A stretch of DNA of 64,000 nucleotides from Robertmurraya dakarensis (GTDB lineage: Bacteria > Bacillota > Bacilli > Bacillales > Cytobacillaceae), in NCBI RefSeq assembly GCF_900156875.1, contig NZ_LT707409.1, positions 72,923-136,922 on the forward strand, read 5' to 3'. This document shows positions 44,544-52,010 of the stretch, one piece after another. Position 1 is the stretch's first letter. Each line of letters begins with the position of its first letter. The notes below the pieces were generated by a model. That model was not told the origin of the DNA. It saw only the letters and a program-made list of their open reading frames with translations, and made no database searches. Both the position numbers and the translations under genes were made by a program.

Positions 44544-45572
44544 CTAGTTATACGTTCCGAATTCTTTTGTTGCCCGGACCATCGTTTCAATCACTTCAAA
44601 CGGAACGTTATAGGGGATCTCAGGCCCTTGAGAAGATAAGACATACCCATATCCATGTGAAGCTTTGTTAATCGCTTTCTTGACTTCAAGCTGTGTTTTG
44701 ATCGAATTCCAATGGAGCATTTCGATATTATTAAAATTTCCCATGATCGCAATTTTGCCATTAGCAATTCTTTTGCATTCCTCAAGGTCATCTTGGTAAT
44801 CCAAAATGGCCGTAACAGCTCCGGTTGTGGCGATCAAATCTAGTATTCCTTGTGCACTGCCCACTGCTTCATAGACGACGGGAACAGGGATTTCTTTAAT
44901 GGTTTCTTTTAAAAGTGAGAGAACATGTTTTTCAAAGAGCCGTCTGCTAATCACGGTTTGCGAGGCAATTCCATCAGCCATAACAATGATATCGGCACCC
45001 GCATCAACCATTCTTTTTGCCCAAGAAACTGCGTATTGTTTGCACTTATGTAAAAGCAATTTTAAATATTGATCCCCGTTCCGATCTTCATCTAGCAGCA
45101 GTCTCATAAAGGGGCCGGTTCCCATCAGCATGCTCGGCAAGCTAAAAGGGGCAATGAGCCCACCGATGACCGCCGTATGATGTCCCACTTGTTTTGCGAG
45201 AATATTAATCGCTTTTAACGTTTCTTTTGTTTCGGGTGAATCGGTTGGATTCGGAACCTTTAGTTCTACAATTTCTTCAAATTTACCGATCACCATCTTC
45301 GAAAGAGTAGGCGAACCGTTTTTGTAGTAGGTTAAGGGAGATCCCCATGGCACTAAATCCTCGACGACATGTGGTATTCCGAAAATAGCATCATGCTCCA
45401 ATTTTTCCAGCAGTGTTAGTTGCCCCTTGGCGAGATACTCGCCGTTTGTTTGGTAGGAAGGCAGATCTATATTCAATAATTTAGATCCTTGCATTAAAGC
45501 AATGGGGATGACAGGAACGCGGTCTACTGGCTGAAATGTGACGGCCTTCACTAACCGTTCTTTTGAGTTCAT
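44544..45572 (-). CDS. URO-D/MtaA-type corrinoid methyltransferase, zinc ligands missing
   Basis: The 342-residue protein has the uroporphyrinogen decarboxylase/MtaA barrel pattern (RLVKAVTFQPVDRVPVIPIALM at the start, VDAGADIIVMADGIASQTVIS, IAIMGNF). Methyltransferases such as MtaA and MtbA bind zinc through an H-x-C pair and a later Cys (HICG; PGC). Here those places read VVYEAVG (232-238) and SSQGPEIP (313-320), so the ligands are absent. Lack of substrate-defining Arg residues I can recognise makes a true heme decarboxylase unlikely. It overlaps the corrinoid-protein gene by four bases and probably acts on its cofactor, perhaps with non-zinc chemistry. Confidence 0.78.
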   Translation of the reverse strand: MNSKERLVKAVTFQPVDRVPVIPIALMQGSKLLNIDLPSYQTNGEYLAKGQLTLLEKLEHDAIFGIPHVVEDLVPWGSPLTYYKNGSPTLSKMVIGKFEEIVELKVPNPTDSPETKETLKAINILAKQVGHHTAVIGGLIAPFSLPSMLMGTGPFMRLLLDEDRNGDQYLKLLLHKCKQYAVSWAKRMVDAGADIIVMADGIASQTVISRRLFEKHVLSLLKETIKEIPVPVVYEAVGSAQGILDLIATTGAVTAILDYQDDLEECKRIANGKIAIMGNFNNIEMLHWNSIKTQLEVKKAINKASHGYGYVLSSQGPEIPYNVPFEVIETMVRATKEFGTYN

Positions 45573-47092
45573 GAGACATCTCCCTTTCTATTTAGCAGTC
45601 CGAGCAGTTCTTTTGCTACTTTAATTGCCTCTATTCCGTTTGCTGCCATTGCGTCTGCTTTGACGGTTTGAACAAGGCGATGCTCAAAGTTAAAAGGGGC
45701 TCCGCCAACAAGGATTTTGACATCGTCTAATCCTCTTTTATCCAACAGCTCTCTTAACTTAATAACCTCTTCTGCCGTGTGAATAATTAAGGCGGAAACG
45801 CAAATCAGTTTCGCATTTTTCTCTTTTGCCTCTCTAACAAAGTCTTCATTACTAACAGATAATCCTAGGTCGGTCACATCAAATCCAGCCATTCGTAAGT
45901 AGGTCGCAACAATTTGTCTTCCTAGGGCATGATAATCACCAAAGGCATTTCCGATTATAACAGCACCCAATTTTTCTTTTGCTTGCTCTTTTTCTAAAAT
46001 AGGCATCAGTAAATCCATGCACGCTTCAATGACTCTTCCGTTTATGTAGATTTCACTCAACGGAACCTGGCGGTCAATCTGTTCCTTTCCGATCGTTTCG
46101 ACCGTTCTTTCTAGAATATGAGTCATAATAAAAGAGGCTTCTTCACCGTTTTCAAGAGCTTTTTGTATAATCATCGTACATTTTTCCTGGTTTTCTTCTT
46201 TGAAATTTTTGTAAAAATCTTTATAAAGATCGGTAGTAGTGTCAGTTTTTAATAAATGGTTAGAAATTCCTAACTCTCTGTTGATGTCCTGGATCAATTC
46301 CCTTGTTAGATTCACTTGCTGTTTAAGAATTTTACTTACGTTGGTATAACTAATTTTGTTATACTCCACCATCATATAGGCTTTTTGGATCATGTCATAA
46401 ATGCGATTCAATGTGTCATCAAGAACCATCGACTCGTTGACGATATTCTCGCTATCTTGATACATTGATACGAAACTGTCTTTTCCTTGCTCTAATTCTT
46501 TGACCACGTCAAAGAGAGTTTGACTATTGTCATTTAGAATTTGTGTCATTTCGGAAGTTTGAATCGTCAATTTACTTGTGGTATCTGTGATATTCATGGA
46601 TGATTTGCTTGTGACAGCCGATAGTTTCCCAACTTCTGTAGCGATAATTTTAAAAACCGCGCCTTGTGGTCCTAATCGATGTGCTTCAATATTTGCGTTG
46701 ATGGCTAATATATTGGTTTGAGAAGACACTTCATGTAATAAACGGAATGTTTCCTGGAGGCGCTTTTCTACTTCCATATTGTCTTCGTTCAAAACCATAA
46801 TTTTTGAATTAATCATATTATAATTTTCTTTTAAACCAATCATTTGGTTGAGGCCGTCTAAAAACAGGGTCAGCTGCTGATCAATTTTCTGTTTGGTCCG
46901 TTCTGCAATTAAAGTAATGTAGTTTTCATTTCCTGTATATTCCATATATATTTTCTTGATTTTTAATAGGTAGTCTCCTAAAGCCTCTGAAGAAGTTTCG
47001 ATATCTTCACAGTAATTTAATTGCGAAAGGAGAACACTAAGCTGACTTTCTAATTTCTTTTTCTGTTTTTCCAAAAAAGCATGCTCGAGCAA
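45569..47092 (-). CDS. Chemoreceptor-like signalling domain fused to corrinoid-binding domain
   Basis: The start is TTG 47092, behind GGGAGGGA. The 507-residue soluble protein has two parts. Residues about 1-280 are a helical coiled coil with a chemoreceptor tip-like core at 121-165 (EVSSQTNILAINANIEAHRL, then VFKIIATEVGKLSAV), like [19 protein letters not shown] of receptors. Residues about 290-500 are a methyltransferase-type corrinoid domain: helical cap, then D386-x-H388-x-x-G391 (GDYHALGRQI) with the His that ligates cobalt, and the SALI and VGGAPF loops. No membrane segment is present. It is translationally coupled to the methyltransferase. It could report the cobalamin methylation state to CheA/CheW. 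Confidence 0.85.
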   Translation of the reverse strand: MLEHAFLEKQKKKLESQLSVLLSQLNYCEDIETSSEALGDYLLKIKKIYMEYTGNENYITLIAERTKQKIDQQLTLFLDGLNQMIGLKENYNMINSKIMVLNEDNMEVEKRLQETFRLLHEVSSQTNILAINANIEAHRLGPQGAVFKIIATEVGKLSAVTSKSSMNITDTTSKLTIQTSEMTQILNDNSQTLFDVVKELEQGKDSFVSMYQDSENIVNESMVLDDTLNRIYDMIQKAYMMVEYNKISYTNVSKILKQQVNLTRELIQDINRELGISNHLLKTDTTTDLYKDFYKNFKEENQEKCTMIIQKALENGEEASFIMTHILERTVETIGKEQIDRQVPLSEIYINGRVIEACMDLLMPILEKEQAKEKLGAVIIGNAFGDYHALGRQIVATYLRMAGFDVTDLGLSVSNEDFVREAKEKNAKLICVSALIIHTAEEVIKLRELLDKRGLDDVKILVGGAPFNFEHRLVQTVKADAMAANGIEAIKVAKELLGLLNRKGDVS

Positions 47093-49290: not shown

Positions 49291-49471
49291 GCTATGAATG
49301 CTGTGGGTCAAACTATAGCAGGAGCGGCTTCTGGAGAGATCGCATAGATGCGGCGCCGAAGGGTTCACAATCTCAGGCAAATGGACAGAAGAGTAACACA
49401 CAAATACTATTATAGTATTATTATTTGTTATTCTATTGTCTTGAGATTGGTGAAGCCCAATCTCTTTTTTT
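49291..49471 (+). promoter_or_regulatory. Glycine riboswitch (single aptamer) with terminator
   Basis: The aptamer core spans 49327-49392: P1 CTTCT/AGAAG, then GGAGAGATCGCATAGATGCG, GCGCCGAAGG and CTCAGGCAAATGGACAGA, all hallmarks of the glycine aptamer. A GCTAT/ATAGC hairpin at 49291-49319 in front looks like the P0/ghost element of single-aptamer types. CAATCTCAGG (49368-49377) can pair over 10 bases with CTTGAGATTG (49440-49449), the 5' arm of the terminator. Thus folded aptamer plus glycine should allow termination, an OFF switch. It controls the amino acid permease that follows. Confidence 0.9.
49443..49471 (+). terminator. Riboswitch expression-platform terminator
   Basis: GAGATTGG and CCAATCTC pair perfectly around six bases, followed by seven T. 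It lies 54 bases before the permease start and overlaps the antiterminator partner of the glycine aptamer. Confidence 0.9.
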
Positions 49472-49524: not shown

Positions 49525-50862
49525 GTGGCTCAGCAAGAGTTAAAAAGAGATCTTAAAAATCGCCATGTACAGCTAATTGCAATTGGCGGGACGATAGGTA
49601 CGGGATTATTTTTAGGTTCCGGACAAGCTATCAGATTAGCAGGTCCCTCAATCATTTTTGCTTATTTAATCGTGGGAATTGCTTTATTTTTTGTGATGAG
49701 GGCATTAGGAGAATTATTACTGTCGAATGCAGGCTATCATACATTTACTGATTTTGCAGTTGACTATATCGGACCATGGGCAGGGTATGTAACAGGGTGG
49801 ACGTATTGGTTTTGCTGGATTATGACCGCTATGGCCGATATTATTGCGGTCGGGGTGTATGTTCAGTATTGGTTTGATATTCCGCAGTGGATTCCGGCTT
49901 TAGCTGCACTAGTGGTGTTGTTGGGATTGAATTTATTGACGGTAAAGCTTTTTGGAGAGTTGGAGTTTTGGTTTGCGTTAATCAAAGTAATCACGATTCT
50001 CGTTTTAATTGCGATCGGGATTGTCATGATTGTAACTGGATTTCAGACATCTGCAGGAACAGTGTCTGTGAGCAATCTTTGGGAATATGGCGGTCTTTTT
50101 CCTAATGGAGCAACTGGATTTTTGCTCGCTTTCCAAATGGTTGTGTTTGCGTTTGTGGGAGTTGAGTTAGTGGGGGTATCTGCTGCTGAAACGGCTGACC
50201 CAAAAAAGAATATTCCATCTGCTATCAATAAAATCCCATTGCGTATCCTATTTTTCTATGTCGGGGCACTTTTTGTCATCTTGTCGATTACACCATGGAT
50301 ACAATTTGATGCTTCGAGCAGTCCATTTGTACAAGTATTCAGCTTGGTCGGAATTCCCGTTGCTGCTGGAATCATCAACTTTGTAGTATTAACATCTGCA
50401 GCTTCAGCATGTAATAGCGGAATGTTTTCAACAAGCAGGATCCTATATAATCTAAGCAACAACGGTCAAGGACCTGCTAAGTTTGGAAAATTGAATCGCA
50501 ATCATGTACCTAGCAGCGCTTTACTAACATCAACTTTGGTTTTATCGATTGGGGCACTTTTGAGTAAAGTGATACCAGATCAAGCGTTTAGTATCGTGAC
50601 GACGATCAGCGCCATTTGTTTTATTTGGGTATGGAGCATCATCTTAATTTCTCATATCATCTACAGCAAAAAACGCCCTGATTTAAGAAGAAAGTCGACT
50701 TTCAAAGCACCGCTGACACCGTTTATAAACTATGTTGTTCTAGCGTTATTTGCTTTTATCCTCATGGTAATGTTTTTTGCTGAAGCCACACGAACAGCGT
50801 TATTACTGACACCACTATGGTTTGTGCTTTTGCTGTTCCTTTATGTTTCCAGAAAAAATTAA
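49525..50862 (+). CDS. APC family amino acid permease, glycine-regulated
   Basis: The start is GTG 49525, after AGGGGG. The 445-residue protein has the 12 helices of the amino acid transporter family (LKNRHVQLIAIGGTIGTGLFLGSGQAIRLAGPSIIFAY in helix 1; VFAFVGVELVGVSAAETADPKKNIPSAI; NSGMFSTSRILYNLS). It resembles AapA/CycA of Bacillus and Escherichia coli, which import D-alanine, D-serine and glycine by proton symport. The glycine riboswitch in its leader strongly supports glycine as a substrate, with uptake reduced when glycine is plentiful. Confidence 0.9.
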   Translation: MAQQELKRDLKNRHVQLIAIGGTIGTGLFLGSGQAIRLAGPSIIFAYLIVGIALFFVMRALGELLLSNAGYHTFTDFAVDYIGPWAGYVTGWTYWFCWIMTAMADIIAVGVYVQYWFDIPQWIPALAALVVLLGLNLLTVKLFGELEFWFALIKVITILVLIAIGIVMIVTGFQTSAGTVSVSNLWEYGGLFPNGATGFLLAFQMVVFAFVGVELVGVSAAETADPKKNIPSAINKIPLRILFFYVGALFVILSITPWIQFDASSSPFVQVFSLVGIPVAAGIINFVVLTSAASACNSGMFSTSRILYNLSNNGQGPAKFGKLNRNHVPSSALLTSTLVLSIGALLSKVIPDQAFSIVTTISAICFIWVWSIILISHIIYSKKRPDLRRKSTFKAPLTPFINYVVLALFAFILMVMFFAEATRTALLLTPLWFVLLLFLYVSRKN

Positions 50863-50930: not shown

Positions 50931-50975
50931 TTGACATATTATATAAATTGTTTAAAATCAAATTGTGCACAACTT
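50931..50975 (+). promoter_or_regulatory. Promoter and operator of the OhrR-like/selenoprotein operon
   Basis: TTGACA (50931-50936) and TAAAAT (50953-50958) are 16 bases apart. AATTGTGCACAACTT at 50961-50975, at the expected transcription start, is a near-perfect palindrome resembling OhrR operators (AATTGT/ACAATT half sites). Autoregulation by the OhrR-like protein is inferred. Confidence 0.75.
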
Positions 50976-50999: not shown

Positions 51000-51461
51000 G
51001 TGGATGCTGAGTATTTTTTAAAGCTGGAAAATCAGTTATGTTTTTCGATTTATGCATGTTCCCGAGAGATCACGCGGTTATATCGGCCGATTTTAGACCA
51101 ATTAGAGCTTACGTATCCGCAATTTTTAGCTTTAACGGTTTTATGGGAACATAAACGGTTAACGGTAAAGGAAATGAGTGAGCTGCTTTATTTAGATAGT
51201 GGGACATTAACGCCGATGCTAAAACGGATGGAGACGATGGATCTGCTAAAACGGGAAAGGTCGAGAGAGGACGAAAGGAAGGTATTCATCGAACTAACAG
51301 AAAAAGGTGTGCAATTGAGAAAAGATGCCCTGCAGCTGCCTGAAAAGTGCATCCCTCATTTTGGACTTTCAAAAACTGAGTATTATGAGCTGCTTCAGAA
51401 AATAAATCAAATGATCACTAGTCTCCAAAAGGTAACTAGAACAAATAATGAGGTGAAGTAA
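51000..51461 (+). CDS. OhrR-type MarR family regulator with sensor Cys
   Basis: The start is GTG 51000, after AAAGGAGAG; the frame is open further upstream but runs through the promoter. The 153-residue protein has the OhrR hallmark Cys near its N-terminus (LENQLCFSIYACSREITRLYRPILDQL, Cys about residue 14) and a winged helix (LTYPQFLALTVLWEHKRLTVKEMSELLYLDSGTLTPMLKRM; wing REDERKVFIELTEKG). OhrR proteins leave DNA when organic hydroperoxides oxidise this Cys. Its stop codon abuts the ATG of the selenoprotein gene, so it should control that gene in answer to peroxide. Confidence 0.9.
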   Translation: MDAEYFLKLENQLCFSIYACSREITRLYRPILDQLELTYPQFLALTVLWEHKRLTVKEMSELLYLDSGTLTPMLKRMETMDLLKRERSREDERKVFIELTEKGVQLRKDALQLPEKCIPHFGLSKTEYYELLQKINQMITSLQKVTRTNNEVK

Positions 51462-52010
51462 ATGGATGTCTTACTCCAAAAACCATTTCACGGAGAGAAG
51501 TCCTTTCAAAATATTATTAAAGATCAGAAAAGCTTAGTTGTATTTGTTCGACATCCTGGCTGACCAGTTTGCCGGGAAATGCTTACGCAGTTGCGTGAGA
51601 GATATGAAGAATTAACAGCAACCGGGTATCAGGTGGTGGTGATAACTCCATCAATCGGGTCTTATATAGAGCAGTTTGAAAAAGCTTTTGGTCCATATCC
51701 GTTTCCTATATATGGTGATCCGAAACGAGAACTATATAACAGCCTTGGTCATCAAACGATGCAAAAATGGAAGCTTCTTGCAAAAGCAGGGAAGATGTTA
51801 GTAAAAGGGGGATCTAAAGCTCTTTTTCCAGAGGATGAGGAACAGAAGAAACTTGTACAAAAAGCGATGAAAACGCATGATGTCTTTATCCAAGGGGGCA
51901 CATGGTTGTTTAATGAAAAAGGGGACACTCTTTGGAACCATATCGACACAGAGCCAGAAGACACCGCCTCAATAGATCAAATCCTTTCGGAAATGGAAAG
52001 AAATGATTAA
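51462..52010 (+). CDS. Peroxiredoxin-like selenoprotein (in-frame UGA read as Sec)
   Basis: From ATG 51462, preceded by GAGGTGA, the frame reads MDVLLQKPFHGEKSFQN, IIKDQKSLVVFVRHPG, then TGA at 51561-51563 (codon 34), then PVCREMLTQLRERYEE and continues to TAA at 52010: 182 residues. The motif is HPG-U-P-V-C, where peroxiredoxin-like AhpC/TSA_2 (PRXL2-type) proteins have C-x-x-C. A perfect 7-bp hairpin starts 18 bases after the TGA, as bacterial SECIS elements do. The rest is a normal thioredoxin-fold protein (VVVITPSIGSYIEQFEKAFG, FIQGGTWLFNEKGDTLWNH). It directly follows an OhrR-like gene. It likely reduces peroxides or disulfides. A plain nonsense mutation is the alternative. Confidence 0.83.
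51561..51599 (+). promoter_or_regulatory. Candidate bacterial SECIS element
   Basis: After the TGA, CTTACGC (51582-51588) pairs over seven bases with GCGTGAG (51593-51599) around the loop AGTT. The loop lies 26-29 bases after the UGA and has G as its second base, in agreement with known bacterial SECIS hairpins that bind SelB. The hairpin lies wholly within coding sequence. Confidence 0.75.

Follow-up and report, generated by a model that had tools for sequence, protein, structure and literature searches.

The question raised by this locus is whether a TGA triplet lying within an otherwise open peroxiredoxin (Prx)-like reading frame is a stop codon or is decoded as selenocysteine (Sec). The locus belongs to a window of 64,000 nt (the whole stretch of DNA that was analysed, from Robertmurraya dakarensis contig NZ_LT707409.1; all coordinates are window positions). 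On the sequence evidence it is very probably a genuine selenoprotein gene, in which UGA 51561 is predicted to be decoded as Sec to yield a Prx-like product, and which probably shares an operon with an OhrR-type regulator.

Reading frame and homologues of the UGA codon

The frame runs from ATG 51462 to TAA 52008–52010 and spans 182 residues; its sole internal stop is a TGA at codon 34 in the context VRHPG-U-PVCRE. This bears out the original prediction that the frame is interrupted by a single TGA and is intact to 52010, and that the TGA occupies the first position of a U-x-x-C motif (HPG-U-PVC). The features within the gene are as follows.

51462..52010 (+): predicted selenoprotein gene of AhpC-TSA_2 (Prx-like) type, 182 residues with Sec34; matches PF13911
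51561..51563 (+): UGA codon, predicted selenocysteine, Sec34 of the HPGUPVC motif; TGA in 108/108 homologues
51570..51572 (+): Cys37 codon TGC, proposed resolving Cys of UxxC; Cys in 100/108 and Tyr in 8/108 near homologues
51582..51599 (+): candidate bSECIS hairpin CUUACGC-AGUU-GCGUGAG, supported by pairing and covariation; loop starts 25 nt past the UGA

The product would be a 182-residue AhpC-TSA_2/peroxiredoxin-like protein with Sec34 at the catalytic position of UxxC. The AhpC/TSA_2 assignment made earlier holds, in that PF13911 (AhpC-TSA_2) is the best Pfam match at 60.6 bits (above its gathering cut-off of 27), followed by PF00578 at 41.7 bits, and PF13911 is matched at E 0.001 or better by 20/20 aligned members. 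It had also been foreseen that a gene caller would start at ATG 51579 and lose the active site, and the mechanical ORF list does begin there; UGA-type genes are truncated by ordinary gene callers, so that the active site goes missing from the annotation, as is shown at this locus.

Homologues were collected from three sets of genomes. Among 193 genomes of the family, 60 gave a match at E 0.001 and 50 contained one near full-length match (at least 194 bits), and an internal TGA is present in all 50; the independent witness for this TGA is the stop column of the genome search, the motif script having itself sought TGA. In two of these genomes (G096 and G088) a TAG or TAA appears as well, since the match extends beyond the gene end. 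Within the family the homologues are 50–73% identical. The order set of 397 genomes gave 75 with a match at 1e-6, of which 69 (11 of them already counted) were near full-length at 175 bits or more, each again with TGA. For the 108 near full-length homologue genes at this threshold (the present gene included) the count at codon 34, one of the checks originally proposed, is thus TGA 108/108 and Cys 0/108. In the phylum set (398 genomes, 6 matched at 1e-8, 2 of them already counted) two genomes (G806, G938) each contain two adjacent TGA-bearing genes at 38.5–55.9 bits, and two others contain distant Cys proteins at 36.0 and 38.1 bits. The distant Cys relatives (L107, L108, L138, L141; about 30–45 bits) score like the four distant Sec genes, and the fair statement that Cys is absent is therefore the 108/108 at 175 bits or more. 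In a tree of 39 rows the four Cys relatives cluster together in 98% of bootstrap trees (with a long-branch warning and a midpoint root only), and in the alignment the Sec position is the Cys position of relatives.

Counts given below for 112 genes refer to the 108 near homologues plus the four distant Sec genes, two each from G806 and G938. Dropped before counting were L024 (frameshifted, without the UGA region) and L109 and L110 (at positions already covered by L106b and L105). Partial or distant matches left out of the near homologues are those in G118, G158, G095, G075, G076, G046, G101, G081 and G009, together with G128, G363, G534, G226, G217, G422, G919 and G603, and second hits such as those of 400–461 aa.

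Sec is retained more strictly than the second Cys. Of the near homologues, 100 carry UxxC and the other 8 UxxY (L169, L171, L174–L178 and L181, with UPYY or UPIY and Sec kept), and among the four distant Sec genes the motif is UxxC in three and UMLG in one; since the second Cys is missing from 8/108 near homologues and from one of the four distant genes, a UxxC mechanism is not general. Purifying selection is seen on both sides of the UGA, with mean pN/pS of 0.47 upstream and 0.25 downstream (1210 pairs; the values are rough because synonymous sites are near saturation).

These data bear directly on the reading in which the TGA is a true stop, whether in a pseudogene, through a read error, or because translation restarts at ATG 51579 in a second ORF. 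Compatible with it are the mechanical ORF from ATG 51579 and the decayed copies found in relatives (G118/Neobacillus niacini F8, with short fragments in G158, G095, G075 and G076), but the TGA is kept in every one of the near full-length homologues, the protein is conserved before it (F28, R30 and G33 are invariant in 20/20 aligned members), the ATG at codon 40 is retained in just 6/50 family genes, and the hairpin described below is under synonymous constraint. A true stop is accordingly given a very small probability.

Searches of plasmid records gave no match, and the protein search of named genomes found only the Neobacillus niacini F8 copy (L024), which is decayed, frameshifted and without the UGA region. 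The decayed copy in G118 occurs in a genome that has retained selA.

Selenocysteine machinery and the hairpin

Decoding of the UGA as Sec calls for selA, selB, selD and tRNA-Sec, and the proposed check for them found all four in the genome (5.48 Mb, 11 contigs), with anticodon TCA. The same searches were run on 14 control genomes. SelA scores 480 bits in the R. dakarensis genome, with selA family matches in 2/14 controls; selB (362 bits) is the sole match above the curated cut-off, which is exceeded in 2/14 controls; and selD (400 bits), whose own frame contains one TGA, likewise has matches above cut-off in 2/14. The tRNA-Sec match of 57.1 bits is the only one above the cut-off of 47, and is weak when taken alone because 5/14 controls also exceed that cut-off; ARAGORN names the tRNA as tRNA-SeC with anticodon tca. 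At least four other genes with a Sec-type UGA occur in this genome (L119, L125, L129 and L017), namely a Prx-like protein, two formate dehydrogenase-type genes and selD. The further Prx-like protein is of AhpC-TSA type with the motif UGLC, and in both formate dehydrogenase-type genes the UGA is followed by His, one of them scoring above the TIGR01591 cut-off and the pieces of the other below it.

Co-occurrence with selA was also tabulated. In the family set selA is matched strongly in all 50 carriers of the selenoprotein gene and in 122 of 143 non-carriers; in the order set the figures are 69/69 carriers vs 112/328 non-carriers (Fisher p 4.8e-28, uncorrected for shared ancestry).

The hairpin had been described as 7 bp with an AGTT loop, 18 nt past the TGA, and it is found exactly so at 51582–51599 (DNA CTTACGC-AGTT-GCGTGAG). 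It agrees with the bSECIS rules set out in PMC13188914: 7 bp, loop AGUU, a distance of 25 nt, and −8.3 kcal/mol for the hairpin alone. A scan of the window for TGAs flanked on either side by open frame (at least 15 codons before and 80 after, thresholds of our own) gave 12 TGAs, of which only 51561 is followed by a bSECIS-type hairpin at or below −7.5 kcal/mol (−8.3, the next best being −5.6). As a single sequence the region is less distinctive, with z −0.94 for a 50-nt fold (34/200 shuffles at least as stable), z −2.20 for 80 nt (4/200) and z −1.52 for 86 nt (18/200); single-sequence stability being indecisive, conservation was used to evaluate the hairpin.

The conservation check that had been proposed came out positive, as at least 6 of 7 pairs form in all 108 genes and compensatory changes occur. 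In the 97 distinct sequences of these genes 669/679 pair cells are formed (98.5%), and none falls short of 6/7 pairs. Both partners have changed in 25 instances; the fourth pair accounts for 24 of these double-sided changes (A-U to G-C) and the fifth for the remaining one (C-G to U-A). When the four distant genes are included (101 sequences), pairing is 98.6% with 33 double-sided changes. In 1000 shuffles pairing averaged 94.2% and never exceeded 95.6%, and double-sided changes averaged 7.1 and reached 21 at most; such shuffles ignore shared ancestry, so that related sequences may beat them without any structure. Sliding the partner by 1–3 columns reduces pairing to 15–63%. In a 30-sequence count three of five measures exceeded every one of the 500 shuffles, and the other two failed to do so. 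An AGUU loop is present in 100/101 sequences, the exception having AGGU.

Constraint is also apparent at the codon level. The Gln-Leu codons of the hairpin are CAG-TTG in 107/108 genes, while elsewhere in the 50 family genes Leu is encoded by TTG in 14% of cases and Gln by CAG in 51%; synonymous differences are 0–0.23 in the hairpin vs 0.65–0.85 downstream (nine comparisons). Part of the invariance of the hairpin is due to coding, since the same positions encode the conserved peptide LTQLRE. In the adjacent Sec AhpC/TSA pairs of G806 and G938 (L105, L106) hairpins are likewise built around the loop AGUU, with different stems.

It might be supposed that a near-cognate tRNA (Trp, for example), and not Sec-tRNA, decodes the UGA. 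Against this stand the tRNA-Sec(TCA), selA, selB and selD of the genome, a hairpin that satisfies the bSECIS rules, selA in all carriers checked, and the coincidence of the UGA with the Cys of relatives, and such readthrough is considered highly improbable. Sec decoding is thus the preferred reading: the searches that the original prediction had named as able to overturn it found the machinery present and no near relative with Cys. UGA 51561 would be decoded by SelB and Sec-tRNA(UCA), guided by the bSECIS hairpin at 51582–51599.

The OhrR-type neighbour and the proposed catalytic role

A regulator gene lies directly upstream, preceded by the elements listed here.

50931..50958 (+): sigma-70-type promoter-like site TTGACA-16-TAAAAT, based on 11/12 consensus matches only
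50960..50975 (no strand assigned): operator-like palindrome AAATTGTGCACAACTT, which closely follows the −10 hexamer, with perfect core TTGTGCACAA at 50963–50972
51000..51461 (+): OhrR-type MarR regulator, 153 aa, GTG start; matches B. subtilis OhrR 1z91 and PF01047

The encoded regulator has the MarR fold, an N-terminal sensing Cys and likeness to B. subtilis OhrR (1z91, E 5.2e-42). The Ser in 'NQLSF' of 1z91, a Cys15Ser mutant of OhrR, aligns with Cys in 'NQLCF' of the window protein. On the NCBIfam OhrR model NF052638 the score is 152.2 bits and does not reach the cut-off of 200. The TAA stop of ohrR abuts the ATG of the selenoprotein gene (51461/51462), and from this arrangement the two would constitute one operon, in which the OhrR-type repressor would use its N-terminal Cys to sense organic hydroperoxides and would probably keep its own operon repressed through the palindrome at 50960–50975. 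Promoter-like sites number 5 in this region vs 4.1 expected.

An ohrR gene is directly upstream in 6/112 loci (the present one included), with a remnant in a seventh, and the regulatory link is therefore restricted to one branch. In those 6 loci ohrR is preceded by a site that differs from AAATTGTGCACAATTT at no more than 2 positions; it lies 502–510 nt before the selenoprotein start, and such a site is found in no other of the 112. The palindrome ranked as a long inverted repeat in 4/6 ohrR loci (L029, L030, L031, L033), and the copies in the window and in L034 did not so rank. The 12-mer AATTGTGCACAA occurs twice in the R. dakarensis genome; the second copy, beside an ORF presumed from its sequence to be of cold-shock type, may be a chance occurrence.

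At loci without an adjacent ohrR the 700 nt upstream were searched for the palindrome, which was found only at L026, with 3 mismatches. Control by a trans-acting OhrR encoded elsewhere is not supported, because the palindrome is absent from that 700-nt stretch of these loci save L026.

Elsewhere in the window a glycine riboswitch (49321–49398 (+), 47.8 bits) was seen upstream of an amino-acid permease gene (49525–50862), and a B12-binding domain is fused to an MCP-type signalling domain (45569–47092 (−) with 44544–45572 (−)), adjoining a URO-D-family gene.

With respect to function, the product is likely a Sec-based organic-hydroperoxide reductase. Sec34 would attack a hydroperoxide, probably organic, to form a selenenic acid; Cys37 would resolve this to an Se-S bond, which thioredoxin or a low-molecular thiol could then reduce. 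The operon with OhrR suggests the hypothesis of a selenium-dependent defence against organic hydroperoxides.

The main rival to a Sec peroxidase is a selenoprotein of another activity, a thiol-disulfide oxidoreductase or a prostamide/PGF-synthase-like reductase of PRXL2/SelL type. Among solved structures the closest match is prostamide/prostaglandin F synthase 9us9 (E 3.6e-6), in which GCVVCR lines up with GUPVCR of the present protein; its branch is that of PRXL2/SelL. UxxC is moreover a thioredoxin-type motif, as in the 'Prx-like thiol:disulfide oxidoreductase' entered in table 1 of PMC13188914. However, the second solved match is about equal (E 4.4e-6) and is the thiol peroxidase/bacterioferritin comigratory protein 2cx3; the loss of the second Cys in 8/108 near homologues is awkward for a disulfide reductase; and the OhrR neighbour, with the palindrome common to six loci, points to hydroperoxides. 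The reductase reading is a serious possibility, though on balance we doubt it, and the Sec peroxidase is retained as the working assignment.

An apparently Sec-only subfamily and its known relatives

The UxxC AhpC-TSA_2 genes apparently form a Sec-only subfamily, whereas nearly all selenoproteins have Cys homologues according to the 2026 review PMC13188914. In that review a difference in Sec motif is treated as marking a separate subfamily, and table 1 has no row for cd02970/PF13911 with UxxC; the locus is therefore taken to represent an apparently new UxxC subfamily of a known kind. Among the papers listed by the literature searches none was recognised as dealing with a UxxC AhpC-TSA_2 Sec subfamily, and the terms Bacill, AhpC, peroxiredoxin and Prx-like are all absent from the main text of PMC12013277 (deep-Sep). 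With UGA in 108/108, and the second Cys lost on occasion but Sec never, the subfamily offers a good test of the need for selenium. A fuller proposal, to which we give an even chance of being right, is that Bacillota possess a peroxidase subfamily restricted to Sec: Cys never takes its place in the 108 genomes sampled, the second Cys is dispensable and one branch is tied to OhrR, selenium there serving as the catalytic element of an OhrR regulon in place of Ohr or beside it.

A different domain arrangement was observed in two relatives (L131:644-2002 and L132:631-2115), where a Sec peroxiredoxin domain (RGTWUPNCR) is fused to an MCP domain (PF00578 + PF00015), and more matches of 400–461 aa with one TGA are present in the family and order sets. 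Such a Sec peroxiredoxin-MCP fusion is possibly a selenium-based redox chemoreceptor; a full-text literature search found no paper on it.

Comparison with known systems places the protein close to, and apart from, each of four. It resembles the SelL-related redox proteins of NF040769 and the PRXL2/SelL branch in its full-length alignment, with C/U-x-x-C at the same place. NF040769 is its only strong NCBIfam match, at 89.8 bits against a cut-off of 120, and no NCBIfam model reaches its cut-off with this protein; five relatives score 88.6–101.7 bits, and unlike members of that family all six proteins tested thus fall below 120, and Sec is invariant in the 108 near homologues. As in the Ohr/OhrR organic hydroperoxide system, in which the partner Ohr is OsmC-like, an OhrR-type regulator adjoins a gene of peroxide-detoxifying type, but the partner here is a Sec AhpC-TSA_2 protein and not an OsmC-like Ohr. 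With the AhpC/TSA cd02970/PF13911 UxxS family (PMC13188914, PMC9312934) it shares the Pfam family and a similar Sec position, and from that family it is set apart by the description in PMC13188914 and by having UxxC. Finally, the Prx-like thiol:disulfide oxidoreductase of PF00578 with UxxC or UxxU, as described in PMC13188914 and PMC1088965, has in common with it the UxxC motif and an AhpC/TSA-type fold, but with the present protein PF13911 outscores PF00578.
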